From a bacterium (GTDB taxonomy: Bacteria; Patescibacteriota; Dojkabacteria; JAKAPS01; JAJZLI01): a stretch of DNA of 46,384 bases. The notes under the pieces are model-generated. The model was not told where the DNA came from and did no database searches. It was given only the letters and a program-made list of their open reading frames with translations. Positions 42-42,351 of the stretch are shown piece by piece. The stretch is from the NCBI GenBank assembly GCA_021791275.1, contig JAJYWX010000034.1, positions 1 to 46,384 on the forward strand, written 5' to 3'. The position numbers and the translations under genes are program-made. Positions within the stretch are counted from its first letter, which is position 1, and every line of letters starts with the position of its first letter.

Positions 42-1184
42 TTAAGTATTCCAAAGTGGACTATCTATATTCTTGATAAATTTATCTTTAGAATTAAAAT
101 CTTTAATTGCATTATCTATTAATTTATCTATTATTTCTGAGAACTGTACTCCTGTAGCTTCCCAAAGATAAAATGAGAGTGATCCAGGTATAGTATTTAT
201 TTCTATTGGATAAAATTTATTATTTTTTTGATCGACTAAAAAGTCTATTCTTGCTAAGCTCTGCCCATCTAAAAGCTTGTAGATCTGTTTAGCTGTATTT
301 CTTATTGATGCATCTAAATTTTTGTTAATTTTTGCAGGAACTTTTCTCTTTGATCCAGCCATCCCCTCATTAGTCTTACTTTTTTTACCCCCTTCTTGAA
401 GGTACTTATCTTCATAGGAGTAAACGATATTTAAGTCTTTTTCAATTTCTTCAGAGAGAGATAATTCTATTTCATTATTATTTTTCATTAATGAATAAGT
501 TATCTCAATAACATCATCTTTAAATTTTTCTATAATAATTTTTTCATCAAATAGTATATCTGTATCTATAATGTCTTCGAGTTCAGAATCATTTGTAACT
601 TTTTTGACACCTATACTTGATCCTAATGAATTAGGTTTAACTATTGCAGGATATCCAATCTCTTTTTTTATTCTTTCTATACATTTATCTCTATTATTTT
701 CCCAATCATCTTTTAATATATACATCCATGGGACAATTTCGATATTATTTTCTTCTAATATATATTTGGTAATTATTTTATCTATACCAAATAAAGCTCC
801 TTTGATGTTTGGTCCAGTATAGGGGATTTTTAGTAAATCAAAAAAACCCTGTATTTGACCATTCTCCCCCTCTCCTCCATGGAATGTTGGCAAAATAGCA
901 TCTATTTGTGTGATTTTTTTTATACTACCTATGTAAAAAGAAGTTTTCCCCTTATATAGAGATATTTTGACAGGGATTTTTTTTAATTTTACAAAATCTT
1001 TAAAAGTTTCAAATTTAGAAAAATCTTTTATATATTTAAATTCGTGTTTTTTATCTATATATATAGGATATACATTATATTTTTCAAAATTAAATTTCCT
1101 ATATACCTGTTTGGCAGTAATTATAGATACTTCATGTTCTGTAGATTCTCCCCCAAATATTAAAACTATATTTTTTTTATTCAT
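42..1184 (-). CDS. ddl: D-alanine--D-alanine ligase
   Basis: Cytoplasmic ATP-grasp enzyme that joins two D-alanines for the peptidoglycan stem peptide. At 380 aa it is slightly longer than typical Ddl. The N-terminus has the family motif GGESTEHEVS (residues 11-20), followed by the PTFHGGEGENGQIQG segment, a central ATP-grasp lysine region (YPAIVKPNSLGSS) and the C-terminal metal-binding part around ARIDFLVD and PIEINTIPGS. The start ATG (1184-1182) overlaps the TGA of the upstream MurF-like gene as ATGA, so the two are translationally coupled. That fits, because MurF consumes the D-Ala-D-Ala that Ddl makes. The gene is complete; its TAA is at 42-44. No terminator is visible before the window edge. 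Confidence 0.95.
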   Translation of the reverse strand: MNKKNIVLIFGGESTEHEVSIITAKQVYRKFNFEKYNVYPIYIDKKHEFKYIKDFSKFETFKDFVKLKKIPVKISLYKGKTSFYIGSIKKITQIDAILPTFHGGEGENGQIQGFFDLLKIPYTGPNIKGALFGIDKIITKYILEENNIEIVPWMYILKDDWENNRDKCIERIKKEIGYPAIVKPNSLGSSIGVKKVTNDSELEDIIDTDILFDEKIIIEKFKDDVIEITYSLMKNNNEIELSLSEEIEKDLNIVYSYEDKYLQEGGKKSKTNEGMAGSKRKVPAKINKNLDASIRNTAKQIYKLLDGQSLARIDFLVDQKNNKFYPIEINTIPGSLSFYLWEATGVQFSEIIDKLIDNAIKDFNSKDKFIKNIDSPLWNT

Positions 1185-2623
1185 AAGTTTTTTATATAAT
1201 ATTCATCTGTAATATCATTTTGTATTAATACACATCCATTCTCATTAAACTCAGATTTATGATTTTCTATATCATAGATATTTTTTATATTTATGATTTT
1301 ATTTTTATTCTTTATACCACTTATTATAAAGTTTTTAAAAGGGCTATCATATAAAAGAATTTTATCTACACTTTTGTCTAATAATTCACCATACTTTTTA
1401 TTTATAAGACTACTTTCATTTCCTCTTTCTACTATACCCCCCGTAGCAACATAGATATTTCTATATAAATTTTTATCTTTCATATCTTTTAAAAATTTTA
1501 TTGCAGATTGGGCACTCTCTTCTCCGATATTATAACTGTCATCTATATAAGTAATTGAATCTTTCTCATAAGGATACATCCTTCTTTTTGTAGGAGATAT
1601 TAAATTGATTTTTCCCTGTATATTTTTTATATTAAATAATTTTGCACATTCAATCGCTAAGGTAAGATTACTTATCATGCTATATCCTAGCAATTTTGTT
1701 TTAAAAGTATCTTTATTTACTTTAAAATGTATCTCGTTTTTCTTAATATCCAATATTTTATATTCAGTTTTTATGTATTTTTTATTTTTGCTAAACTCTA
1801 TTTGTATATTATATTTATCAAAAGGATATTCATATATATCTTTTGGAGCTATTATTGTTGCATCAGTTTTAGAATAATCAACTGCTTCTTTCCCAGCTTT
1901 AATTATATTTCCAATACTTTTAAACTTTTCTAAATGTTGAGTCCCTATGGAAGTTATTATTGTTACATCTGGGGAAAAATTTTCTGCTATTTCTCTTATC
2001 TCTCCAATCTTATATGCTCCTGCTTCTATTAATAGTATCTCTGTGTGAGAATCCATATCTTTTAATATTCTTTGAGATATACCTATGATTGTATTTATGC
2101 TTCTTCCTTCTGAAAATTTATTTGGAGAAAATACCTTATAATCATATGATAGTAGTGTATTCAAAAAATTTGTTGTACTAGTTTTTCCATAACTTCCTAC
2201 AACCATTATTATTTTTATATCTTTTATTGAATTAACTTTTTTAACAGCTTTCTTTATTAGTCTGACCTCAAAAGATCTTTGGAAAGGGTAAATAACAAGT
2301 AATGATATAAGGATGTATATCCATGATAATTGATATATCGCAATTATAATAAGTAGAAATATTATTATTGAATAGGGTTCAGAATAATTTTTGAATATAT
2401 TTATATAAAAATATATTAGTGTTAATAATTCTAATAATATAGTTATTGTTAATAGTAATTTTATTTTAGATGTGAATTGTATACTATTTTTATGTTGTAG
2501 CTTTTTGCCTATATATAATTTAGGAAGGGCATATTTGAAAAAATCAATCACATTGTACTCCATTAACTGGAGAGAATATAATATATTTATAATATAGGTT
2601 TTCTTTATACTAAATTTTCTCAT
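1181..2623 (-). CDS. murF: membrane-anchored MurF-like Mur ligase
   Basis: Mur-ligase family protein of 480 aa, probably adding D-Ala-D-Ala to the UDP-MurNAc-peptide. The ATP-binding loop GSYGKTSTT lies at residues 143-151, followed by the MurF-like stretch IEAGAYKIGEIREIA and then ITSIGTQHLEKF, and a C-terminal ligase domain (YIDDSYNIG). It is unusual in lacking a normal MurF N-terminal UMP-binding domain. Residues about 53-75 and 84-113 are instead strongly hydrophobic and look like two to three membrane segments. The gene overlaps the alpha/beta hydrolase upstream by 14 nt and ddl downstream by 4 nt. The context with ddl supports MurF over other Mur ligases, but the substrate is inferred. 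Confidence 0.85.
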   Translation of the reverse strand: MRKFSIKKTYIINILYSLQLMEYNVIDFFKYALPKLYIGKKLQHKNSIQFTSKIKLLLTITILLELLTLIYFYINIFKNYSEPYSIIIFLLIIIAIYQLSWIYILISLLVIYPFQRSFEVRLIKKAVKKVNSIKDIKIIMVVGSYGKTSTTNFLNTLLSYDYKVFSPNKFSEGRSINTIIGISQRILKDMDSHTEILLIEAGAYKIGEIREIAENFSPDVTIITSIGTQHLEKFKSIGNIIKAGKEAVDYSKTDATIIAPKDIYEYPFDKYNIQIEFSKNKKYIKTEYKILDIKKNEIHFKVNKDTFKTKLLGYSMISNLTLAIECAKLFNIKNIQGKINLISPTKRRMYPYEKDSITYIDDSYNIGEESAQSAIKFLKDMKDKNLYRNIYVATGGIVERGNESSLINKKYGELLDKSVDKILLYDSPFKNFIISGIKNKNKIINIKNIYDIENHKSEFNENGCVLIQNDITDEYYIKNL

Positions 2624-4268: not shown

Positions 4269-5159
4269 ATGAAAATAGCCATATTCTCTAGAGCTAAAAC
4301 AGATGAAGTTTTGATGATTCAGAAAGAAGCTCAAATTAGAGATCACATTGTTGATATAATAAATCCAATTGACCTTGTTTTTGTACAGGATAAAGAATTT
4401 AGAATATATTATAAAGAAGAAGATATTCTAAATTATGATGCATATATACCCAGATATTTTGGAATTAAAACGTCAAAAGGTTCAAAAAATAATAAAAGTT
4501 TAGTTATAAAATATCTAAAGAATCATGGTAAAGCTGTTATGGACTCAATAGAGGCTGAAAGAGTTCACGGAGAAGGAAAGATGTATTCATTTTTCAAATA
4601 TTCTGATTTAGGAATTAACCTTATACCTACTCTGTATTTTTATAAATATCAAGATATTTCCTTATTAGAAGGTTTAATAGATAGATATAATATAAAAAGT
4701 CCATTTATAGTAAAGAGTACTACCGGTGCACAAGGCAAAGACATATATAAAGTTGATAATATTGAGGATTTATTTAATATTTTAAATGAAAATAATAATT
4801 TATCTTTTATGATTCAACCATATATTAAGGCAGACCATGATTTAAGAGTATTATTATTAAAAAACAAAATATTAGGTGCAATGGACAAAATTCATAAGGA
4901 AGATAATTTTAGAGGAAATATCTCACAAGGTGCTATAGGGAAAAGATATGAATTAAGTGATAGTTTAAAAAAGGATGTTTTACTTTGTTCTCTTTTAAAT
5001 GGAGGGGATCTTGTAGGAGTAGATATTCTTATATCAGATAATAAAAGTTATCTTTTAGAAGTTAATAGAGCTCCTCAGTTTAAAGGTTTTTCAAAATACG
5101 TTGGTATTAATGTAGCAAAAGAAATAATTAAATATTTAGAATTATTATATTTAAAATAA
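4269..5159 (+). CDS. RimK-like ATP-grasp ligase, copy 1
   Basis: ATP-grasp ligase of 296 aa in the RimK/LysX/MptN group, which joins an amino acid to the carboxylate of a protein or small-molecule acceptor through an acyl phosphate. Recognisable parts are GKMYSFFKYSDLGINLIPT (a KxxxxxxL-type segment), the ATP-binding strand and loop FIVKSTTGAQGKD, the LRVLLLKNKILGAM strand, the RGNISQGA motif typical of RimK, and the metal-binding end VGVDILI followed by LLEVNRAP. It begins 1 nt after trhO, and its TAA overlaps the ATG of the second copy as TAATG. The acceptor is unknown. Ribosomal protein S6, a small peptide or a LysW-like carrier (one is encoded at 10696) are all possible. Confidence 0.85.
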   Translation: MKIAIFSRAKTDEVLMIQKEAQIRDHIVDIINPIDLVFVQDKEFRIYYKEEDILNYDAYIPRYFGIKTSKGSKNNKSLVIKYLKNHGKAVMDSIEAERVHGEGKMYSFFKYSDLGINLIPTLYFYKYQDISLLEGLIDRYNIKSPFIVKSTTGAQGKDIYKVDNIEDLFNILNENNNLSFMIQPYIKADHDLRVLLLKNKILGAMDKIHKEDNFRGNISQGAIGKRYELSDSLKKDVLLCSLLNGGDLVGVDILISDNKSYLLEVNRAPQFKGFSKYVGINVAKEIIKYLELLYLK

Positions 5160-6076
5160 TGAAAGTCTGTGTAATTACAAGGTCTAATAAAGGAAATAAT
5201 CCGAATGATTTTTTTGATGTAAAAAGTCTCAAAAAATCTTCTTTGAAATCCAATCATGAATTTTTTATGGTTAATCCAGAAGATTTAGTATTCAGCTATA
5301 TAGATAATAAGCTTAATATAGATATTCTAGGAGGAGGAAATATATTAGATTTTGATATTTACATAATAAGGATATCACTGATTGTTTATCCAGAAAGAAA
5401 AAATAGTGATTCTGCTCTTATCACTGAATACTTACTTGGTAATGGAAAAACTGTTTTGAATATATCCAATTCATTCAGATCTAAAACTAGAAATAAAATG
5501 TATGATTTTATGATATTATCTCAATCTAATATACCTCTTATTCCGTCAATATATTTAGATAGCAATGATATTGATAATATAGAATATTATATATCTAAAA
5601 ATAATTTTAAATACCCATTAATTCTAAAATCGATCAAAGGGTTACAAGGGAGAAATCTTTTTAAAGTAGAAAATTTTGAAGAGATTAAAAAGATTATTTC
5701 TAAAAATAGTCATATTAGTTTTATGATTCAAGAGTACTATAAAATATTGCATGATTTAAGAGTTATAGTTTTGGATGGTAAGATTTTAGGTGCAATGGAA
5801 AAAATACCTAAAGAAGGAGATTTTAGAGGTAATATATCACAAGGAGCTAGTGGAAAAAATTTTGAACTAGATAAAGATCTTTCTGACTTGGTGAAAAGGA
5901 CTTATTATGCAGATGGAACAGAATTTATAGGAATTGATATAGCAATTACAGATAGAGGGACATTTGTTCTAGAAGTAAATCGAGGATTGGGATTTGAAGG
6001 TTTTTCTAAATATTTAGATATAGAAGTTTCAGACCACATTATTAAATATTTAGAGAATAAATTTAATAATCAATAA
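5159..6076 (+). CDS. RimK-like ATP-grasp ligase, copy 2
   Basis: ATP-grasp ligase of 305 aa, a clear tandem paralogue of the preceding gene: both share KMYDF/KMYSF, LxLKSIKGLQGR versus IVKSTTGAQGK, the LGAM(E/D)KI core, FRGNISQGA and LEVNR. Divergence is high outside these motifs, so this is an old duplication rather than a recent one, and the two may act on different substrates. The ATG is fused to the previous stop (TAATG). The 3' end overlaps the convergent ATP-grasp gene on the other strand by 7 nt, leaving no space for a terminator. Confidence 0.85.
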   Translation: MKVCVITRSNKGNNPNDFFDVKSLKKSSLKSNHEFFMVNPEDLVFSYIDNKLNIDILGGGNILDFDIYIIRISLIVYPERKNSDSALITEYLLGNGKTVLNISNSFRSKTRNKMYDFMILSQSNIPLIPSIYLDSNDIDNIEYYISKNNFKYPLILKSIKGLQGRNLFKVENFEEIKKIISKNSHISFMIQEYYKILHDLRVIVLDGKILGAMEKIPKEGDFRGNISQGASGKNFELDKDLSDLVKRTYYADGTEFIGIDIAITDRGTFVLEVNRGLGFEGFSKYLDIEVSDHIIKYLENKFNNQ

Positions 6077-7329
6077 ATTGTACTTATTACTTTTTTAATA
6101 ATATCGATATCAATTTTTTCTTTTGACTGTATTCTAGATATTTCAATGTTATATCCTACCTTCTCTTGGCTTGTAATTATTAGTAAATTATTTTTTCGAA
6201 GGTAAGTGAGGTCATACCCATCACCTATTTTTTCTAGATTATTATTATAAATTCCATTTAGTAGATTTTTAATTTTTATCTCATCTGTTTTTTTATTTCT
6301 TATTATAATTTGCCTAAAATTATAATCATCATAAATATATTCATTTATCTTTTTATAGTCAATTTTATAATCTTTTTTTAAAAATTCTAATATATGTATA
6401 AGTTTAAAAGGTATTTCTTCTCTTTCTATTTGTAATTTTGTAAATGTAGGAATAGATGCATTTTCCCTTGCATTAATTTCAATTAAATAAAAATTTTCCC
6501 CGTCAAAAACAAAATCAGCACCAAACATCCCAATGTATCCATCTTTTTTCATTATATTTGCTATATAATTCATTTTATCTATTAGTTTATCTTTTTCTTT
6601 ATTTTCAAGATTAGTTATCCATTCATTTCCAACACTTGCACCCTTGAAGTCTGTTAAAACATTTATACCTGTTATTTGTTTTGATAAATTACCTATCAAT
6701 ATTCCATTCTTGGTGATTACAGAATTTATAGTATAATATATTCCCTCTATCTTTTTTGATGCTTTTGATATTCTTTTAGGATATATGTTTTTTATTTTAT
6801 TATATTCATCACTATTCTCAATAAAGAAGGTGCTGTTTCCACTCTGCCCTCTTTGAAATTGTATGACGAATTTATCGCCTATTTTATTTTTGATACTTTC
6901 ATATGAGTCTTTTTCTAGATTTATAAATATGGTTTGAGGAACAATATCTTTAAATATTTTACTTATCTCTATTTTATTTTCATATTTCTTATTTAGTAGT
7001 GATGAGGTATTTAATATATTTTTTCCATTCATCACATTTTCTATTTCTTTTGATATTTTAAAGAACATGAAATTTGCTTTATCAATGGAATTTATATATT
7101 TTTGTGTATTTTTATTTAAAAGTAATTTTACAGAGCTTCTTTTTATTTCTATTTCAGGGAAGTCCTTCTTTAAAGAAAAATATTTTTTTTGAAAATTTAA
7201 AATATATGAGTTATCCATACAAACAATATAAAAATTAGGCAATACTTTTTCTAATCCCAATGATCTTTCTGGATCTGTCGTTACATATATTATATTTTCA
7301 TTTTTTATTTTTCCTTCTAAATCTTTCAT
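6070..7329 (-). CDS. ATP-grasp amino-acid/peptide ligase-like protein
   Basis: Protein of 419 aa with an ATP-grasp core in its middle: an ATP-binding strand FVIQFQRGQSGNSTFF, a substrate-side strand, and the metal-binding segment GMFGADFVFDGENFYLIEIN with ARENAS after it. This is the arrangement of the carbamoyl-phosphate-synthase/biotin-carboxylase-like L-amino-acid ligases. It has an N-terminal domain of about 120 residues and a C-terminal extension of about 110 residues that I do not recognise. Its ATG overlaps the stop of the PLP-enzyme gene (ATGA), which in turn overlaps leuS, so the three are co-translated. A two-step pathway, with an amino acid made by the PLP enzyme and then ligated by this protein, is plausible but inferred. 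Confidence 0.75.
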   Translation of the reverse strand: MKDLEGKIKNENIIYVTTDPERSLGLEKVLPNFYIVCMDNSYILNFQKKYFSLKKDFPEIEIKRSSVKLLLNKNTQKYINSIDKANFMFFKISKEIENVMNGKNILNTSSLLNKKYENKIEISKIFKDIVPQTIFINLEKDSYESIKNKIGDKFVIQFQRGQSGNSTFFIENSDEYNKIKNIYPKRISKASKKIEGIYYTINSVITKNGILIGNLSKQITGINVLTDFKGASVGNEWITNLENKEKDKLIDKMNYIANIMKKDGYIGMFGADFVFDGENFYLIEINARENASIPTFTKLQIEREEIPFKLIHILEFLKKDYKIDYKKINEYIYDDYNFRQIIIRNKKTDEIKIKNLLNGIYNNNLEKIGDGYDLTYLRKNNLLIITSQEKVGYNIEISRIQSKEKIDIDIIKKVISTIY

Positions 7330-8258
7330 ACTCCAGTAAAAAGTATTACTACCTTTTTAAATAAATATCCATTTTCTAATGCTTTATATAAACCTGCAAG
7401 GGCAAGTGCCCCTTCATAAGACGTATATACTCCACTTTTCCTAAGTAGTCTTTGATATTTATCAATCTCTTTATTCTCTATAGTCCATCCCCAACCTCTT
7501 GTTTTATTAATTATTTTCTCTACATCTTTTTTCCTATTTGTTACCCTTGCTACGATAGCTTTTGCTAATGTTTCATCTTCTGATTTAAAATTATTGTCAA
7601 ATAGATGTGATATTGTATTTATTTTTGATGTCTGAACTAGATGAATTTTACAATTTTTATTTATTCTTTTGGATATACCATAAAGTGTAGTTCCACTACT
7701 TACAGGTATAAATAGGGCATCTGCTCTCAAATTATATAACTCTTCACCGATACTTTTATATCCTTGTTCAGCATATTTGGTGTTAGACCCTCTAAAAATT
7801 TCTATATTATTTTCTTTAGAAAATTTTATCGCATCTGATAGTGGTCTTAGTGTTTTTATTACTGATATATTTTTCTTGTTATTTTTTATTGCTAATTCTA
7901 ATCTTTCATCTTTTTTCTCTTCTAATTTAGAAGATAAATATAGGTATACCTTTATTCCTGATAATTTAGAATAATTTGCCGCTGATATGGCTGTATTTCC
8001 TGATGATGGGATTATAACCTCTTTTATTCCCTTATATTTTAAGTATGAAAAGTAATATGCAATTGACCTATCTTTAGCAGACCCTGTTGGGTTTTTGTCT
8101 TCTCTTTTTGCAAATACATTTTCTATGCCTGTATCTATTTCTATATTTTTTAACCTTATGAGTTCTGTATTCCCTTCATTTAGGCTTATTTGATATTCTT
8201 TAGGTATTTTAGGCGTATATAGATTTTCGTATTCCCATATTCCTTTATTTTTTTTCAT
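7326..8258 (-). CDS. threonine-synthase-like PLP-dependent enzyme
   Basis: Fold-type II PLP enzyme of 310 aa, related to threonine synthase and cysteine synthase. The N-terminus has the family's EGNTELIRL motif (residues 28-36). The PLP lysine is probably Lys62 in NPTGSAKDRS, and the phosphate/substrate loop is SSGNTA (85-90). A glycine-rich PVSSGTTLYG loop follows. It is shorter than typical threonine synthase and lacks that enzyme's N-terminal extension, so the substrate is uncertain; beta-replacement or beta-elimination on serine, homoserine or their phosphates are all possible. It is coupled by ATGA overlaps both to leuS upstream and to the ATP-grasp ligase downstream. Confidence 0.8.
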   Translation of the reverse strand: MKKNKGIWEYENLYTPKIPKEYQISLNEGNTELIRLKNIEIDTGIENVFAKREDKNPTGSAKDRSIAYYFSYLKYKGIKEVIIPSSGNTAISAANYSKLSGIKVYLYLSSKLEEKKDERLELAIKNNKKNISVIKTLRPLSDAIKFSKENNIEIFRGSNTKYAEQGYKSIGEELYNLRADALFIPVSSGTTLYGISKRINKNCKIHLVQTSKINTISHLFDNNFKSEDETLAKAIVARVTNRKKDVEKIINKTRGWGWTIENKEIDKYQRLLRKSGVYTSYEGALALAGLYKALENGYLFKKVVILFTGV

Positions 8259-10615
8259 ATAACAATATTCAAAATTTTATTTTTTATATATATTACTTTT
8301 TTAATCTCATTATTTTTAATTTTCTCTTTAAGTTTATTATCATCCAATACTTTATTTAAAACTATTTCCTCTGGAGAATCTTTTTCTATATATATCTCTC
8401 CTCTAAATTTCCCATTTATTTGTATAGGAATTAATATATGTGTATTTTTATTTTCAATATTTAAAATTTCTGGCCATTTAGATTTATGTATACTATAAGT
8501 ATTGCCGATTTTTTCCCAAATCTCTTCTGTTATAAATGGGGCGTATGGTGAAAGTATTATCAGAAATTTTTCCAGATTTTCTTTTGTTATGGAGTTTAGT
8601 TCTTCTACTCTATTAACATATTTCATGTATTCACTAACACATATATTATACTTTCCTTTTTCTATATTATTTTCAATTGTTTTTATAAGTTCATTTGTCA
8701 AAAAATCTTCTTCATTATTTTTACTCTTACTTGTAATATATTGCAGGTTCCAGATTCTTGTAAGAAATTTATTTATCCCTATTATTGATCTGGTCTCCCA
8801 TGATGAGTATTGTTTAAAAGGAGCCATGAACATTTCATACATTCTAATTGCATCTGCGCCATATTCTTCAATGGCAAATTTTAAAGTTACTACATTCCCC
8901 CATCTTTTACTCATTTTTCTCTTATCTTCACCATATATTAGTCCTTGATGTCTTAATTTTGTGAATGGTTCATCAAAATTTAGTATTTTTTCATCATATA
9001 AGAATTTTGTTATAAATCTAGAATACAGCAAATGTCCTACTGCATGTTCATTTCCACCTATATATAGATCTACTGGTAGCCAATGATTTATATATTCTTT
9101 ATTTCCTATAGATTTAGTATTCTTATTATCTATGAATCTTAAAAAGTACCATGAAGAGTCAACGAACGTATCCATTGTTTTAGCTTCTCTTTTAGCCTTT
9201 CCTTTGCATTTAGGACATTTAACATTTGTAAATTTTTTAGATTTTTCTAAAGGTGGTTTCCCTGTTGGTCTATAATCATCTATATCATCAGGTATTAATA
9301 CTGGTAGATCTTTCTCATCTACTGGTACTTCTCCACAATTTTTACAATATATTATAGGAATTGGTGTTCCCCAGAATCTTTCTCTTGATATGAGCCAATC
9401 TCTAAGTTTGTATTGAGTTGTCCATTCAGCATCTTTTATGCTTTCTACTATATTCTTACGTGCTTCAGAAACATTCATTCCTTTATAATCACTTTTAATC
9501 ATGATTGATTTTTCATATGGTTTTTTTTCATTTAGAACATACTCTATTTTAATATTATGTTTTTGTGCAAATAACATGTCTCTTTTATCATGTGCAGGAA
9601 CTCCCATTATTGCTCCAGTGCCATATTCCATGAGAATGTAATCTGCTACCCATATAGGAATCGGCTCATTATTTGTTGGATTTATAGCATACAAATTTGT
9701 AAATACTCCGGTTTTTACATCTTTTTTCCTTTCTACTTCAGATTGAGGAGTTAGATTTTTTCTATATTCACTGATAGCTTTTTTTGTATTAGAGTCAAAT
9801 AAATTATCTAAAGACTTATTTTCTGGTGCTAGAGCTATAAACGTTGTTCCATAAATTGTCTCGGGTTTTGTTGTAAATATAGATATACTTTTATCTAAAT
9901 CCTTTAATTTAAATTTTATTTTTGCACCTATACTTTTTCCTATCCATTTTTCTTGCATCTTTTTAGTAGATTCAGGCCAATCTAGATTTTTATTATCATT
10001 GAGTAATCTATCAGCATAGTCAGTTATTTTAAAAAACCATTGATCTATATTTTTTATCTCTATTTTACTATCACATCTTTCACATATGCCTCCTACAGAT
10101 TGTTCATTTGATAGAACCGTTTTGCATGATGGACACCAATTAACTGGAGACTTCTTCTTATATGCAAGGCCTTTTTTATAGAGTTTTAGAAAAATAATTT
10201 GGTTAAATTTATAGTAATCTGGATCAGAAGTGGTTATTTCTCTATCCCAGTCAATACCTACTCCAGAATTTATTAATTCTTTTTTAAATTCACTTGTATT
10301 TTCTTCGGTAACAATATTTGGATTTTTACCTGTTTTTATAGCAAAATTTTCTGTTGGCAATCCAAATGAGTCCCATCCCATAGGATGTAGTACTTCAAAT
10401 CCTTTTAATCTTTTATATCTAGCAACAATATCCGTGGCAGAGTATCCTTTTATATGACCTACATGAAGACCTGCACCTGAAGGGTAAGGAAACATATCTA
10501 GAACATAATACTTGTTTTTTTTTGAAGTTATATCTGTCCTATATAAATTTTCATCTTTCCATCTTTTTTTCCACTTATTCTCTATTTCTTTTATATTATA
10601 TTCTGATCTTTTCAT
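8255..10615 (-). CDS. leuS: leucyl-tRNA synthetase
   Basis: Class I aminoacyl-tRNA synthetase of 786 aa. The N-terminal catalytic signature is FPYPSGAGLHVGHIKGY (HIGH-type HVGH). A zinc-binding CPSC...CERC pair lies around residues 160-180, the CP1 editing domain is present (TTFIALAPEN region, VPAHDKRD), and the KMSKRWGN signature follows near residue 567. A C-terminal anticodon-binding domain completes it, so it is full length. It starts directly downstream of a leaderless-type promoter divergent from the LysW-like gene. It is the first gene of an operon with the PLP enzyme and the ATP-grasp ligase. Confidence 0.97.
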   Translation of the reverse strand: MKRSEYNIKEIENKWKKRWKDENLYRTDITSKKNKYYVLDMFPYPSGAGLHVGHIKGYSATDIVARYKRLKGFEVLHPMGWDSFGLPTENFAIKTGKNPNIVTEENTSEFKKELINSGVGIDWDREITTSDPDYYKFNQIIFLKLYKKGLAYKKKSPVNWCPSCKTVLSNEQSVGGICERCDSKIEIKNIDQWFFKITDYADRLLNDNKNLDWPESTKKMQEKWIGKSIGAKIKFKLKDLDKSISIFTTKPETIYGTTFIALAPENKSLDNLFDSNTKKAISEYRKNLTPQSEVERKKDVKTGVFTNLYAINPTNNEPIPIWVADYILMEYGTGAIMGVPAHDKRDMLFAQKHNIKIEYVLNEKKPYEKSIMIKSDYKGMNVSEARKNIVESIKDAEWTTQYKLRDWLISRERFWGTPIPIIYCKNCGEVPVDEKDLPVLIPDDIDDYRPTGKPPLEKSKKFTNVKCPKCKGKAKREAKTMDTFVDSSWYFLRFIDNKNTKSIGNKEYINHWLPVDLYIGGNEHAVGHLLYSRFITKFLYDEKILNFDEPFTKLRHQGLIYGEDKRKMSKRWGNVVTLKFAIEEYGADAIRMYEMFMAPFKQYSSWETRSIIGINKFLTRIWNLQYITSKSKNNEEDFLTNELIKTIENNIEKGKYNICVSEYMKYVNRVEELNSITKENLEKFLIILSPYAPFITEEIWEKIGNTYSIHKSKWPEILNIENKNTHILIPIQINGKFRGEIYIEKDSPEEIVLNKVLDDNKLKEKIKNNEIKKVIYIKNKILNIVI

Positions 10616-10652
10616 TAAAACGATGTTAACATAAAATTTAAATCAAAATCAA
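10616..10652 (-). promoter_or_regulatory. leaderless promoter of leuS operon
   Basis: On the minus strand: TTGATT (10652-10647), an 18-nt spacer, TAACAT (10628-10623), 7 nt, then ATG at 10615. It is divergent from the promoter of the LysW-like gene; the two share the 80-nt intergenic region. Confidence 0.55.
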
Positions 10653-10660
10653 TTTTTATG

Positions 10661-10695
10661 TTGATTAATTAATATTTTTAAAGTATAATATTTTC
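10661..10695 (+). promoter_or_regulatory. leaderless promoter of LysW-like gene
   Basis: TTGATT (10661-10666), exactly 17 nt, consensus TATAAT (10684-10689), 6 nt, then ATG at 10696. This is one of the best sigma-70-type promoters in the window. It places the transcription start on the start codon. Confidence 0.75.
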
Positions 10696-10854
10696 ATGAA
10701 AGTTACTTGTTTAGAATGCCAAAATGAATTTCAAGTAGAGCCTGTTTCTAACGGTGATACAGTAGAGTGTCCCTTTTGTGGAATTGAACTCGAGTATAAA
10801 GGAAAGAATCCTCAAGGAGAGGAATCATTTGAAATAATAGAGGAAGAAAAATAA
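10696..10854 (+). CDS. LysW-like zinc-ribbon small acidic protein
   Basis: Small acidic protein of 52 aa with Cys5/Cys8 and Cys25/Cys28 zinc-ribbon pairs, Gly20 and the GIELE segment at 29-33. As I remember Thermus LysW, the amino-group carrier protein, the cysteine spacing, Thr4, Gly20 and ELE all coincide. LysW proteins end in EDWGE, whose last Glu is the attachment point for the substrate. This one ends in IIEEEK, so it is either a non-carrier relative or uses a different acceptor residue. It has its own leaderless promoter and is followed 4 nt later by another tiny gene. Two LysX/RimK-type ligases lie about 5 kb away. Family assignment is moderately sure; function is open. Confidence 0.7.
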   Translation: MKVTCLECQNEFQVEPVSNGDTVECPFCGIELEYKGKNPQGEESFEIIEEEK

Positions 10855-10858
10855 ATCC

Positions 10859-11017
10859 GTGTTCGAGAAAAAAGAGTATACAGGCCCAATTTTCCATAGG
10901 AAAGATAAATGTAATCCATTTGAAGTCATTAGAATATTTGGTGAAATAGTAGAAAAAGGTGGTGACCCTAGAATATCTGAGATAATTAAAAAGCTAGAAT
11001 CTACACAAGAAGAATAG
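10859..11017 (+). CDS. small protein of unknown function (52 aa)
   Basis: Reading frame of 52 aa beginning at GTG, 4 nt after the LysW-like stop, and ending with TAG at 11015-11017. The product is charged and has a sequence expected to form helices (NPFEVIRIFGEIVEKGGD, then ISEIIKKLES). I do not recognise a family. The tight spacing behind the LysW-like gene and sensible amino-acid composition support a real gene. A GTG start with no ribosome-binding site would depend on coupling to the upstream gene. It may be a partner of the zinc-ribbon protein, but nothing in the sequence demonstrates that. Confidence 0.55.
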   Translation: MFEKKEYTGPIFHRKDKCNPFEVIRIFGEIVEKGGDPRISEIIKKLESTQEE

Positions 11018-11022
11018 CCATA

Positions 11023-11057
11023 TTGATTTATATTATAGGATGTTGTATAATGGAGGT
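11023..11057 (+). promoter_or_regulatory. leaderless promoter of 60-aa gene
   Basis: TTGATT (11023-11028), 17 nt, TATAAT (11046-11051), 6 nt, then ATG at 11058. The geometry is the same as at the LysW-like gene. The GGAGG inside the 6-nt gap is only 1 nt from the ATG and is probably not used as a ribosome-binding site. Confidence 0.7.
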
Positions 11058-11240
11058 ATGAATAGTGAACATCAACCTACCACACCTAAAGAATGGTTTG
11101 ATAATATGCGTGAACAATTGTCTAAAGCTGAAATAGGAGGATCTAATCCTGATGAATCTAATCCTTATGTTACTGGAAATGGTTTAGATAGACTAAGACT
11201 TTTAGCTCTTAGGAGAATAAGACAGGAAACAGGGATTTAA
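11058..11240 (+). CDS. small protein of unknown function (60 aa)
   Basis: Predicted protein of 60 aa, hydrophilic, with a TPKEWFDNMREQLSKAE helix-like segment, an Asn/Ser/Gly-rich middle and a basic C-terminus (LRLLALRRIRQ). No family recognised. An in-frame ATG exists at 11040, but a consensus -10 box lies between the two ATGs, so the start at 11058 is chosen: it sits 6 nt after TATAAT as at other genes here. Its stop is 11 nt from the stop of convergent murB. It could be co-inherited with the LysW-like gene upstream, yet it has its own promoter. Confidence 0.65.
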   Translation: MNSEHQPTTPKEWFDNMREQLSKAEIGGSNPDESNPYVTGNGLDRLRLLALRRIRQETGI

Positions 11241-11251
11241 TAAAATTAATA

Positions 11252-12235
11252 TTAAGATTTAAATATTATTTCTGGAGATAACTTTATTTTGAATTTCTTA
11301 TACACCTCATTTTGAACTTTATCCATTAAATTTTTTACATCTTTTTCTGTTGCATTTCCAGTATTGACTATATAATTTGCATGTTTGTCATATATTTGGG
11401 CTCCACCTATTTTTTCTCCCTTTAGTCCACATTGATCTATAACCCATCCTGCTGAATTTACAGGAGATCCAATTTTTTCTCTTTGATTATCAGTTATATT
11501 TTTAAAAATTGATCCTGCAGAAGGTAGTTTTGGTTGGATATTTGTTTTTCTTTTTAACCATTCTATAGATGTCTCTCTGGCTTTTTTAACATCTCCTTTA
11601 AATAAAACTAAATTTGAAGATAATAATATATGTTTATTTTCATGAAGTACACTATAATCATATCCAAATTTAAAAAAGTTTCTATCAACTTCCTCAACAT
11701 CACCTTCTAGAGTCAATATCTTAGCCTTATATAAATAATTACCTATAAGTTTAGATCCTCCATGGATATTATTAAAGATTGCACCTCCTACTGTTCCTGG
11801 TATAGCAGAAAAGTATTGTATTCCTGTGATATTCTTTGATAATAAATCATTTATAAGGTAGGTAAGGTTTACTCCGGATGAAACATTTACAATTACTTGA
11901 GCATACTTTTTCTCATCTTCTTCAAGGTCTGTAAATTTGAAGTATTCTCCTTCCCTATAAAATGATTTATCATCACTTATTTCAATTCTTGATTTAATAT
12001 CAGAAATATTAGTCTCTTTATATTTATTAATTATAGTAAGACCTTTTATACCTTTATCAGATATTAATACATTACTTCCCCCACCTAAAATAGTTATTGG
12101 GAAGGATTCTTTTTTCGCAAATTTTAAAAGATTTATTAAATCTTCTTTAGTGTTTGCTATTGAAAAAAATTGAGCATCTCCACCTATTTTAAAAGTTGTA
12201 TATTCTTTCAAACTTATGTTTTTATCTATTTTCAT
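11252..12235 (-). CDS. murB: UDP-N-acetylenolpyruvoylglucosamine reductase
   Basis: FAD-dependent enzyme of peptidoglycan precursor synthesis (UDP-GlcNAc-enolpyruvate to UDP-MurNAc), 327 aa. Visible are the N-terminal YTTFKIGGDA motif, the FAD-binding ILGGGSNVLI loop, FSAIPGTVGGAIFNN, the catalytic-serine region LPSAGSIFKN, and the C-terminal LSPEIIF with the conserved glutamate. An insertion of about 40 residues (around 74-112) rich in charged residues separates the FAD-binding parts and is longer than in typical MurB. It is the last gene of the envelope-glycan cluster and overlaps the upstream glycosyltransferase by 14 nt. Confidence 0.95.
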   Translation of the reverse strand: MKIDKNISLKEYTTFKIGGDAQFFSIANTKEDLINLLKFAKKESFPITILGGGSNVLISDKGIKGLTIINKYKETNISDIKSRIEISDDKSFYREGEYFKFTDLEEDEKKYAQVIVNVSSGVNLTYLINDLLSKNITGIQYFSAIPGTVGGAIFNNIHGGSKLIGNYLYKAKILTLEGDVEEVDRNFFKFGYDYSVLHENKHILLSSNLVLFKGDVKKARETSIEWLKRKTNIQPKLPSAGSIFKNITDNQREKIGSPVNSAGWVIDQCGLKGEKIGGAQIYDKHANYIVNTGNATEKDVKNLMDKVQNEVYKKFKIKLSPEIIFKS

Positions 12236-34535: not shown

Positions 34536-36344
34536 TCAGATCATATTGTACTTTCGTACAAAAGATGGGAGAACAATTGTTCTTGCGATGAATGCTTCAA
34601 TCAGAAATGCCAGAGCGAGTAGCTCAGCTAACTGAATAATTGATGCATTCATGCTGACGATAGAGAACCCAGAGAGCACAGTAAACATTGCAAATGCTCC
34701 ACCCATTACTGGGAGTGATGTTCTCTTTATGCTGTTTTGGATGAAATCTGCTTCCCCTCTTTTTTTTCTTTTTCTCATGTCATTGATTATGAGAATGTGG
34801 TAGTAAGTTGCAAACCCAACGTATACCGGGATTGCGATGATGGGGTCAACTATGTTGTAGACGTTGTACCCTGTGATTTTACTACCAATAATCATAATCC
34901 CAAATGCTGCTCCTAAGGGGAGAAGTTTCAGTAGCACAGTTAAAAGTGCTAGGTGAAACTTTTTGAACAGTACCAAGCTCAAAAGGAAAGGTATTGCTAC
35001 AAGTTCCAATGGTATTAACCATGGGAGTGAGTTACCCAACCTTTTGTTAAAATCAATGATAGTTTCTCCGGCTCCTCCTATTTCTACTTTTGGGAATGAT
35101 TCTTGTATTTTTTGAATCATTCTTGATTGTTCCATTGCAGGAATAGTTGTGGGGATGTAAACTACTCCTTTGTTGATTTTCCCATGAAATTCTTTTGCTA
35201 AAGAAACCTCCTCTTTGGCGTCTCCTATCACTACTACTGGAAAAAGACTTTCCTGAGGGAAAATCCTTGATATTTCCTCGGTAGTAGTTTGGATTTTACC
35301 TGCAGGCTCTGTCTGATTCAACAGTGGAATACTCAGATTCTCTGTATTCTTAACAGGATTCTGAGGGTTTCCAATCCTTAGGATAGATATTGGAAGTGAT
35401 AGAACTACTAACACTCCAATAAATATCCACCCCACCTTGTGAGACCTTATTCTTGTTACCTTGAAAGGTAGCTTATTTTTAGTCTCAAGGATTCTTGACC
35501 TATTTGCATAGATTAAGAATGGGGTTACTGTCGAATTCAAGATTACGCTTACTACTGCAGTGATGCATACTGCAAGCCCCATTGATCTTACAACTTTTTG
35601 ATCTATAAAGATCAAAGGAATGCTTGTAAGAACAAGTGCAATGCCTGCTTTGAGAATGACCTCCTTAAGAAGTGAGAACACTTCTTTCATGCTTTCCGTC
35701 TCCCTATATGTATGAATCATCCCTAAGGGATAATCTACATTTGTAGAGAGTGCAATTGTGTTTGCTGTAGTTGCAGCAAGAATTGAAACTGGTGAAAGGA
35801 AGTGTACTAGGTAAAGAATAAAGTACACTATTCCTACTGTCAGTAATGCTACTGAAAGAGGAATTACTGAAACAAAGAAAGCTCCAAACAGAAGGATCAT
35901 TACAGGAAGAAGAAAAATACTACTTCCTAGGTCAGAAACTTCAGTTTGTGTTTTGATTTGGTTCAGTTCACCGTATTCAATTGCTGGAACTCCAGAAACT
36001 TGTGCGATTCCCTTAACCTTTGATTCCACTTCTTGTAAAGTGGAGATTGATCCCGATTCTGAAGGAAAATTTCCTACGTAAGTTAGCAGAAAAATTTCCC
36101 CTTTTGAATCAACGGATGAAAGGGTCAAAGAGTGGAAAGGCTTAAGAAGTTTTTCAGTCTCAGCTTTTTTTTGAGTGAGTATCAGGATAGATGTATTTTC
36201 ACTTAAGTGAGAAAATACATATTCCTCTTCTGTATGAGGGGTGTTCCAGCCAGACAAACTTTCATTCATCTGAAGTGCTAGAAACCCATATACAGCGATT
36301 GCGGCAATTACTATTAAAAGTAATCGCCTCCTGTGGGATTTCAT
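34536..36344 (-). CDS. MMPL/RND-superfamily membrane transporter, probably acquired
   Basis: Membrane protein of 602 aa with two similar halves. One helix near the N-terminus (about 7-25), an external domain (about 30-140) and a block of five helices are followed by a second set starting near 305, an external domain (about 335-435) and the last five helices. This is the 12-helix RND/MMPL plan in compact form. Base composition differs from neighbours: 34921-34980 has 23 G/C of 60, while 33481-33540 has 14 of 60. It has an AAGGAG ribosome-binding site (36358-36353) 8 nt before ATG, unlike most genes here. The cargo is unknown; lipids or hydrophobic compounds are typical for the family. Confidence 0.82.
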   Translation of the reverse strand: MKSHRRRLLLIVIAAIAVYGFLALQMNESLSGWNTPHTEEEYVFSHLSENTSILILTQKKAETEKLLKPFHSLTLSSVDSKGEIFLLTYVGNFPSESGSISTLQEVESKVKGIAQVSGVPAIEYGELNQIKTQTEVSDLGSSIFLLPVMILLFGAFFVSVIPLSVALLTVGIVYFILYLVHFLSPVSILAATTANTIALSTNVDYPLGMIHTYRETESMKEVFSLLKEVILKAGIALVLTSIPLIFIDQKVVRSMGLAVCITAVVSVILNSTVTPFLIYANRSRILETKNKLPFKVTRIRSHKVGWIFIGVLVVLSLPISILRIGNPQNPVKNTENLSIPLLNQTEPAGKIQTTTEEISRIFPQESLFPVVVIGDAKEEVSLAKEFHGKINKGVVYIPTTIPAMEQSRMIQKIQESFPKVEIGGAGETIIDFNKRLGNSLPWLIPLELVAIPFLLSLVLFKKFHLALLTVLLKLLPLGAAFGIMIIGSKITGYNVYNIVDPIIAIPVYVGFATYYHILIINDMRKRKKRGEADFIQNSIKRTSLPVMGGAFAMFTVLSGFSIVSMNASIIQLAELLALAFLIEAFIARTIVLPSFVRKYNMI

Positions 36345-40420: not shown

Positions 40421-41260
40421 CTAATTATTTTTTTCCTCTCTCATATTTCTTAGAAAGTATTTAACTATCTCTTTTGGTCCCAATGATAATAAATATAATA
40501 ATCTCTCTATTGTAAAGGAACTTATAATTCTATATGTACCATTTTTAAATAGTATTTGTGCATCCATGTTTTTCACTATATTATATGTTAATGATTCTGT
40601 CGATGTCCAAAAAATAGCAATATCTGGGAGCTTGCCTACATCTAATTCTTTTATAAAATGTCTGAACAATTCTTGTAATTTACTTAATCCTCTTTCATTA
40701 TTTAATGATGCAATTTCTTTTATAAATAAAACGGGTCCTACCATATCAATTGCTAATTTTCTTAAGAATTCTTTTTTTAATTCAGGTTTATCTACATATT
40801 CTTCTTCGTGCTGCATCCATATATCATGAGCGTCATTTGTAAGGTGCCCAGATATAAATCCTGTTATTGAATTATTTTTTATTGAAACAAGAAAAATACC
40901 ATTTTTTTCTCTTAAATTTCTTATCTCATTACTGAATGATTCGAAAGTATGATATATTGATAACTCTCCACCACACTCACATCTTGTATCTTTATTCCTT
41001 TCAAAGATGCCTAATAAATCTTTTTCCCCTTTTTCTATTGGAGAATATATAGTATATGGATAATTTTTATTGCATTTTTTACACCTAACAAATTCATTCC
41101 ACCCGTTATTTTCACTAGAGTCTCCAAATGCCATTAAGTATGCATTATATGCATCTCTAATTAATTCTGGAGATGGATTCTTTACTATATCTATAAAATA
41201 GGTAGTAGAAGGATCCATCTCTTTCATATAGATAGGTTTTTCATTTACTGCTGTTTCCAT
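40421..41260 (-). CDS. GNAT-like protein with zinc-binding insertion
   Basis: Protein of 279 aa that I place only tentatively. The middle and C-terminal parts read like a GNAT acetyltransferase: SITGFISGHL as the central strand, then VLFIKEIASLNNERGLSKLQELFRH, where GNATs have the acetyl-CoA loop RGxG and a helix, and NMDAQILFKNGTYRI near the end. An insertion at about 57-96 carries Cys60/Cys63 and Cys94/Cys96, likely a zinc site. Its ATG is fused to the stop of the ThiF-like gene (TAATG), so the two products are made together. The acyl donor and target are unknown. Confidence 0.55.
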   Translation of the reverse strand: METAVNEKPIYMKEMDPSTTYFIDIVKNPSPELIRDAYNAYLMAFGDSSENNGWNEFVRCKKCNKNYPYTIYSPIEKGEKDLLGIFERNKDTRCECGGELSIYHTFESFSNEIRNLREKNGIFLVSIKNNSITGFISGHLTNDAHDIWMQHEEEYVDKPELKKEFLRKLAIDMVGPVLFIKEIASLNNERGLSKLQELFRHFIKELDVGKLPDIAIFWTSTESLTYNIVKNMDAQILFKNGTYRIISSFTIERLLYLLSLGPKEIVKYFLRNMREEKNN

Positions 41261-42351
41261 TATTTATTTTTGATATTTCTCAACCTAGAATGAACCTTTA
41301 ATATCTTTACAATACTTCTTCTCATATTATTATACACAGAGTTCCAAGATTTATCTGCACTAATCCATATTGTTTCCTGAGGATTATTTTCAGCTATAGA
41401 TATAATTATATGAGCGGATAAACCTGCTGTAATAAAAGATGCTACTAAGCTTTGAGGTATGTTATCAGAATCTATATATTTTTTATCTGCCATTCTTGCT
41501 AATCTTTCTGGCATTCTTATTGCTCCTTGTGGATATCTTAGAATAGTAGGTACTTTTCTAGAAGAGTGTACAATTATATCAAAGTCATTAGTATTATGAG
41601 GATCTTTTCTTACCATTTTACTTACTTGTTCATCTTTTATCTTTCCATTATATAATTTTCTTTTTTTGTTTTCTATGCGATAATCATACACTTCTATATG
41701 TACATCATGCCCCAAATCTAAAGGGTAAATAATAATTTTTCCTTGTCTATATGCTTCATGGTGTAATTTTTGTAATATTGTTAAGTCATCAAATGATGCT
41801 ATTATTATATCGTTATTAGTTACAATTTCTTCTATGTCAGCATCTTCTAGGTTTTTAGGATGAGCTTCTACCTGAACGTATGGATTTATTAATGCAAGTC
41901 TATTGGCCCTATCATTTGCTTTATTTTTCCCAATACTTCTTAAGTCAATAGCTTGTTTATCCATATTTTCAATACTATATTCATCACCATCATATAAATC
42001 TAATCTATGCACCCCTAGTCTTGCCATAGCAGATGATGTATAACTTCCAACTGAACCTAATCCAACAATTCCTATAGAATACTGTCTTATTCTCTCAATA
42101 GTATCTTTCTCTACACATGGAATCATATGAGAAGTAGTCTCTTCTAAATATGAGGTCATTCCTTCATTAGTATAATCTAGAGCTATTACTTGGCAATATT
42201 CATTATGATAGAACTCTACCTCTCCGGAATTTAAATCTATATCAAATGGATTTATTATTTCAGAATCATCTTTGGGCTTCTCTACTTTTCTTAAATACCT
42301 AGTAATTAAAGATTGCCCTATATGAGAATTTTTTTCATTTTCAGGTTTCAT
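41260..42351 (-). CDS. E1/ThiF-like adenylyltransferase
   Basis: Protein of 363 aa with a ThiF/MoeB/E1 nucleotide-binding core: IGIVGLGSVGSYTS (GxGxxG at 97-102), the acidic LYDGDEYSIENMDKQAID where E1 proteins have DxDxVExSNLNRQ, IGKNKANDRA with the conserved lysine, and ASFDDL. The usual Arg of NLNRQ is Lys132. There is no CxxC zinc pair and no obvious catalytic cysteine loop, so it may adenylate a C-terminus or another carboxylate without forming a thioester. An N-terminal extension of about 85 residues is unrecognised. Coupled to the GNAT-like gene. No ubiquitin-like protein is adjacent. Confidence 0.75.
   Translation of the reverse strand: MKPENEKNSHIGQSLITRYLRKVEKPKDDSEIINPFDIDLNSGEVEFYHNEYCQVIALDYTNEGMTSYLEETTSHMIPCVEKDTIERIRQYSIGIVGLGSVGSYTSSAMARLGVHRLDLYDGDEYSIENMDKQAIDLRSIGKNKANDRANRLALINPYVQVEAHPKNLEDADIEEIVTNNDIIIASFDDLTILQKLHHEAYRQGKIIIYPLDLGHDVHIEVYDYRIENKKRKLYNGKIKDEQVSKMVRKDPHNTNDFDIIVHSSRKVPTILRYPQGAIRMPERLARMADKKYIDSDNIPQSLVASFITAGLSAHIIISIAENNPQETIWISADKSWNSVYNNMRRSIVKILKVHSRLRNIKNK

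Follow-up and report, generated by a model that had tools for sequence, protein, structure and literature searches.

The DNA analysed here, referred to as the window, is a stretch of 46,384 nucleotides from a genome of the Dojkabacteria (Patescibacteriota; an 888-kb assembly of 37 contigs, GCA_021791275.1, G000 in our numbering). It represents contig C6 of that assembly (JAJYWX010000034.1) from base 1. We found that it carries genes for a small LysW-like zinc-ribbon protein, a pyridoxal phosphate (PLP) fold-type II enzyme and an enzyme of the ATP-grasp type, and that the linkage of these three genes recurs far beyond chance in relatives of the window genome, all of them Patescibacteria. A previous interpretation of the same DNA, made from the letters alone and called here the sequence-only reading, had grouped the three genes with two RimK-like ligases. 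All five genes are present where it had placed them (Table 1), and the PLP and ATP-grasp genes behind leuS overlap as described, the ATP-grasp gene with the PLP gene and the latter also with leuS. Three things had escaped it: a partner of the NlpC/P60 type, the setting among peptidoglycan genes, and the lysine with which the small protein invariably ends.

The LysW-like protein and its terminal lysine

The 52-amino-acid (aa) protein and its counterparts in relatives exceed the gathering cutoff of the Zn_ribbon_LysW family (PF21344, 34.9 bits for the window protein, cutoff 27). Yet, the window protein falls under the cutoffs of both equivalog models, TIGR01206 for LysW (23.3 vs. 53.2) and NF041070 for archaeal LysW/ArgW (23.0 vs. 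75); thus, we regard it as LysW-like rather than as a LysW equivalog. A search of PDB sequences likewise gave LysW-family proteins as the top two matches (5k2m, E 6e-4; 3wwl, E 7e-4). The zinc-ribbon cysteines noted in the sequence-only reading (Cys5, Cys8, Cys25, and Cys28) were recovered, and the two CxxC pairs they form are invariant in the alignment and in every listed orthologue. The EDWGE tail, whose terminal Glu is the attachment site in LysW, is absent from the protein, which ends in IIEEEK, again as had been pointed out.

The last residue is Lys in 49 of 49 LysW-like proteins, against a background of ~15% of the proteins encoded in the same loci, and the pattern held in the 18 loci added after it had first been noticed; as to the diversity behind this count, 33 sequences represent 16 clusters at 50% identity. 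Since the penultimate position varies (E, G, D, M, Y, Q), it is the Lys itself that is the fixed residue of the tail. The ribbon takes insertions and the proteins range from 47 to 142 aa, the longer ones (85–142 aa, family f11) being encoded at the same divergent position. A PF21344 match in genome G076 was set aside as an unrelated ribbon.

Partner genes, linkage and distribution

In the relatives G002–G006, which belong to the same family, the LysW-like, PLP and ATP-grasp genes lie on one contig. The LysW-like and PLP genes are arranged head-to-head in all 49 loci holding both (43 strictly divergent, six with close or overlapping predicted starts), and their starts are mostly 3–450 bp apart with nothing between them; leuS intervenes in the window, G002 and G003. 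Among the neighbours of 70 ATP-grasp loci we counted the PLP gene 50 times, the LysW-like gene 46, the NlpC-like gene 43 and mraY 33 times. Across 97 genomes, the NlpC-like gene was detected in 35 of the 39 ATP-grasp-positive and in none of the 58 ATP-grasp-negative ones (Fisher 2.8e-22; weak matches in three further genomes, E > 1e-16, are left out of this count). Small open reading frames (ORFs) matching PF21344 are present in 26 of the 39 and in two of the 58 (without the long-ORF matches in G067, G071, and G081). The association does not depend on linkage alone, as G016, G022, and G088 retain the ATP-grasp gene apart from the PLP and LysW-like genes.

When 84,980 species genomes were scanned with the ATP-grasp alignment, 25 loci were returned, all labelled as Patescibacteria (the candidate phyla radiation, CPR) or as unnamed or uncultured bacteria, with records of the window genome's family among them; the scan used strict peptide patterns, so the lack of loci outside CPR is not proof of absence. 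The groups represented are Dojkabacteria, Paceibacterota, Roizmanbacteria, Spechtbacteria, and Taylorbacteria. In a phylum-wide sample of 381 genomes, 77 genomes had a match at E <= 0.001, and slightly more than half of these matched strongly. In genome G001 the RimK pair is present and the module is not, and no good match to mraY was obtained; we did not treat it as an independent gene loss, as the assembly may simply lack the contig with its cell-wall genes.

The ATP-grasp enzyme has three residues invariant in the alignments (D272, E284, and N286), and its AlphaFold model (predicted local distance difference test, pLDDT, 93.7) is assigned the ATP-grasp fold by Foldseek. When its profile was compared with PDB sequences, the amino-acid ligase BesA ranked first and the peptide ligase PGM1 matched more weakly. 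In the PLP enzyme, K62 of the SAKDR motif is invariant; the nearest family is threonine synthase, with 2zsj as the best PDB profile match, and the protein stays under every NCBIfam equivalog cutoff. As side observations, module ATP-grasp enzymes with a C-terminal NUDIX domain are encoded at L272:8070-10055 and L276:8466-10163. At L269:8408-11173, with no module genes nearby, a 921-aa protein combines ATPgrasp_ST, Zn_protease, and ATP-grasp_3 domains.

The fourth member of the module is a cytoplasmic NlpC/P60-like protein, whose gene is often followed by mraY. In the window genome it adjoins mraY on another contig, C12, of 7,865 bases; since the NlpC-like gene lies near the end of C12 and the window, which starts at base 1 of C6, opens with ddl, the two contig ends may adjoin. 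The catalytic residues C95 and H174 are invariant in 19 NlpC-like sequences and the third position is His or Gln; the structural model has a pLDDT of 89.9. Several fusions join the partners: ATP-grasp and NlpC-like domains form a single ORF in L250, an ATP-grasp-SH3-NlpC/P60 protein is encoded in L262 (its NlpC domain scores 68 bits on PF00877), and in L256 (one genome, G118) an NlpC-like domain is joined to a MurC/Mpl-type ligase.

Cell-wall surroundings and other genes of the window

The genes neighbouring the module include mraY, Mur ligases, ddl, murB, ftsW, and murG. In L254, L256, and L258 the gene order is MurC/Mpl-type ligase, NlpC-like, mraY, (LysW-like), PLP, ATP-grasp, ftsW, murG, ftsA, ftsZ, so that mraY stands on one side of the PLP and ATP-grasp genes and the division genes on the other; in L244 the two are found between MurD and ftsW; the names ftsW, murG, ftsA, and ftsZ in relatives come from reading the translations and not from profile searches.

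Table 1. Module genes, neighbouring genes and compared loci (positions refer to the window unless a contig or locus is named).
Feature	Position	Strand	Evidence or remark
LysW-like zinc-ribbon protein, 52 aa, C-terminus IIEEEK	10696..10854	+	PF21344 34.9 bits (cutoff 27); PDB LysW matches
PLP fold-type-II enzyme, threonine-synthase-like, 310 aa	7326..8258	-	PF00291 142 bits; K62 in SAKDR motif
ATP-grasp ligase-like enzyme (GRASP3), 419 aa	6070..7329	-	PF02655 36.1 bits; NF005096/PRK06524 partial match
NlpC/P60-like gene of the window genome	C12:7000-7701		adjoins mraY
leuS, not a module member	8255..10615	-	most other loci have no gene between PLP and LysW-like
RimK-like A	4269..5159	+	judged outside module
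RimK-like B	5159..6076	+	judged outside module
ddl, D-Ala-D-Ala ligase, cell-wall context	42..1184	-	NF002528 274 bits, above cutoff 262
MurF-like ligase, cell-wall context	1181..2623	-	PF08245 79.5 bits; TIGR01143 132 bits, below cutoff 288.6
murB-like, cell-wall context	11252..12235	-	MurB from reading translation; syntenic orthologues in G002-G006
LysW cluster of G004, contig C1	L081:6248-15198		LysW (EDWGE), LysX (GSWGR), ArgC/LysY-like, LysZ-like, LysJ-like

As for the Mur ligases, MurE has only 30–66 residues ahead of the P-loop in 11 of the 12 module-positive genomes examined. Many MurE proteins of Patescibacteria (L317:3262-4560; L196, L206, L213, and others) likewise have only 30–77 residues there and thus lack the N-terminal domain; within the same class, MurE of module-negative members has instead a MurC-like N-terminal part of ~140 residues. 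We rejected a short MurE as a distinguishing mark of the module, as module-negative CPR from other classes have one too. The idea that the module replaces MurE was discarded because module-positive genomes keep MurE, and a general replacement of MurD is weakened by the MurD gene beside the module in L244. Motif searches of the whole genome of G004 (L279–L318), a single case, showed three Mur-ligase-family proteins only and an alanine-racemase-like gene, with no match to two MurI motifs and no MurD. The dapF gene was found in one of the 97 genomes.

In the window, the TIGR01143 match of the MurF-like ligase begins at profile position 72, and apparent membrane helices take the place of the usual N-terminal domain. 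Two small ORFs directly follow the LysW-like gene (10859-11017 and 11040-11240); they are not at the same place in G002 and gave no Pfam or NCBIfam match where searched. Further away, an MMPL-family gene at 34536-36344 has a G+C content of ~0.33–0.39, compared with ~0.27 around it, and was possibly acquired. A ThiF/E1-like protein is encoded beside a 279-aa protein without a Pfam match at 40421-42351.

A candidate carrier system and its alternatives

We tentatively propose, as a quite possible reading, that the LysW-like protein, the PLP and ATP-grasp enzymes and the NlpC/P60-like protein constitute a carrier module for the synthesis of peptidoglycan precursors in Patescibacteria. Support for the proposal comes from the linkage and co-occurrence of the genes, their setting among cell-wall genes, the fusions, the catalytic residues that the enzymes have kept and the unchanging terminal Lys. 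The mechanism is drawn by analogy with amino-group carrier proteins (AmCPs; PMC9303977, PMC10433800). In the order of steps that we infer, the ATP-grasp enzyme would use ATP to link an amino acid or short peptide, as the presumed substrate, by an amide bond to the carrier tail, through a group of the C-terminal Lys. The PLP enzyme may make or remodel that amino acid, either free or tethered, and the NlpC/P60-like enzyme might cleave off or transfer the product, which Mur ligases and MraY would put into the stem peptide or cross-bridge. We found no description of such a module in the literature searched and no paper joining LysW and Patescibacteria. Little is understood of how these bacteria manage to build a wall from such a small set of genes, and the module provides a concrete candidate, open to assay, within the mur and division clusters. 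The data suggest an undescribed carrier-based step in the wall building of ultra-small Patescibacteria; if true, protein-carrier chemistry would serve not only the synthesis of amino acids but also that of the cell wall.

Several observations weigh against the carrier proposal. Neither PLP, NlpC-like nor LysW-like genes lie near 16 of the 70 ATP-grasp loci, kinship among the genomes inflates the co-occurrence statistics, and many Patescibacteria with an mraY-family gene are module-negative, so CPR walls do not all require the module. On the structural side, the top Foldseek matches of the ATP-grasp enzyme are PurK, PurT, and biotin carboxylase at ~12% identity. Four free NlpC-like proteins score 17–20 bits on PF00877 (cutoff 23), and the NlpC-like model gave a weak Foldseek match to the NlpC/P60 endopeptidase 4xcm (E 0.11). 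Regulator genes, too, are typically small and divergent from an operon. Finally, LysW carriers are loaded via the gamma-carboxyl of a terminal Glu (PMC10433800, PMC9303977), while the terminus is Lys here.

The main rival explanation follows from the gene arrangement: the LysW-like protein might be a zinc-ribbon regulator or adaptor of the divergent PLP/ATP-grasp operon, whose enzymes would produce a dipeptide or other small molecule related to the wall, with no tethered intermediate involved. Its small gene, head-to-head in most loci with a shared intergenic promoter region, and the frequent role of zinc ribbons as regulators or structural parts fit this explanation. We nevertheless consider it rather unlikely, as LysW comes first both with PF21344 and in the PDB searches, none of the proteins departs from the terminal Lys although length varies and the ribbon takes insertions, and the LysW-like gene stays associated despite an intervening leuS or an ATP-grasp gene located elsewhere. 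The same Lys could instead mark the protein as an end substrate, joined through this residue to a peptidoglycan precursor or stem peptide as a covalent tag. The C-terminal Lys of Braun lipoprotein, which is attached to the finished wall, offers a precedent, and both the Mur and MraY neighbours and the presence of an NlpC/P60-like enzyme in the module agree with it. Such a role is improbable in our judgment, given that the LysW-like sequences bear no export signal (judged by eye) and that the PLP enzyme would be left unexplained. That the ATP-grasp enzyme is not a ligase but a carboxylase, with bicarbonate and an amine as substrates in the manner of PurK or biotin carboxylase, appears more doubtful still: the Foldseek ranking given above and the name of the nearest NCBIfam model, biotin carboxylase (NF005096), speak for it, whereas the score on that model (121) is far under the cutoff of 684, the PDB sequence profile search ranks an amino-acid ligase first, and no biotin carrier or carboxyltransferase gene was seen in the loci.

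The sequence-only reading had suggested a reduced or repurposed carrier system with the RimK-like pair as LysX-type loaders. The repurposed carrier is the part that we retain as the best reading; an amino-acid pathway of the LysW/LysX type in reduced form, with the two RimK-like enzymes as its loaders, seems highly improbable, even though RimK and LysX are related ATP-grasp families and the genes lie within 7 kb in the window genome. The linkage it had assumed for five genes holds for three; the RimK pair is on another contig than the module genes in G002, G003, and G004, and in several relatives RimK-like genes are found near mraZ or ATP-synthase genes. G002 retains the order ddl, murF-like, hydrolase, trhO, ATP-grasp, PLP, leuS, LysW-like, murB without the pair; consequently, two of the five genes drop out. 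Both ligases resemble RimK rather than LysX and remain below all equivalog cutoffs, and the best PDB match of RimK-like A is E. coli RimK. The GSWGR motif, with which LysX/ArgX recognises EDWGE, is replaced by GAQGK in A and GLQGR in B, while the LysX of G004, taken as a control, has it. On these grounds we rejected the pair as loaders of the LysW-like protein. As a separate observation, the RimK-like ligases are in tandem in G000–G004 and single, near mraZ, in G006. No LysZ, LysY, LysJ or LysK homologues occur among the window genes around the locus, as the sequence-only reading had stated, and the EDWGE tail is lacking as well. In turn, G004 possesses a canonical LysW cluster at 198–207 kb of its contig C1, alongside the module in the same genome. 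This cluster also holds acetolactate-synthase-like, PALP-enzyme, SHMT-family, and glutamine-amidotransferase-like genes, and no LysK was seen in it. Because G004 has both, the window protein is not a worn-down LysW standing in for the pathway, and we rejected the module as a replacement of the latter.

A bolder version of the carrier proposal, which we think has little likelihood, is that part of the stem peptide in these Patescibacteria is built on the protein carrier and not on UDP-N-acetylmuramic acid (UDP-MurNAc). The ATP-grasp enzyme would load the first residue on the C-terminal Lys, MurE/MurF-type ligases without the N-terminal UDP-binding domain would extend it, the NlpC-like enzyme would release the peptide and a MurC/Mpl-type ligase would join it to UDP-MurNAc. 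Hints of this are the short MurE in 11 of 12 genomes, the three Mur ligases and missing MurI motifs of G004, and the NlpC-MurC/Mpl fusion of G118; against it stand the short MurE of module-negative CPR, MurD beside the module in G103 and the fact that the MurI result comes from motif searches in one genome.

Among known systems, the proposed module is most readily compared with the LysW/ArgW AmCP systems, with which it shares a small LysW-like zinc ribbon, a mostly acidic tail with a fixed last residue, and an ATP-grasp enzyme accompanied by other amino-acid enzymes. It differs from them in having a terminal Lys (49/49) where AmCPs have Glu, with no EDWGE, and in an ATP-grasp enzyme of the ATP-grasp_3 branch and not of the RimK/LysX type. 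A PLP fold-type II enzyme, an NlpC/P60-like protein in place of the LysK peptidase, and the peptidoglycan context further set it apart. The peptidoglycan ligases of the ATP-grasp type, such as the D-Asp ligase Aslfm and Ddl, are also amide ligases encoded in cell-wall gene clusters, and may be paired with an amino-acid racemase; the module ATP-grasp sequences belong to another branch, and we know of no carrier protein in Aslfm/Ddl-type systems. In the Pearlin/PEARL systems (TglA, TmoA), the C-terminus of a small peptide, itself encoded by a gene, is the site on which an amino acid is built in amide linkage, to be cut off later by a protease (PMC9303977). Loading there relies on a tRNA-dependent ligase, none of which was seen here, and the carrier of the module is a zinc ribbon; yet, C-terminal, amide-bound building followed by release is what we propose for the module as well.

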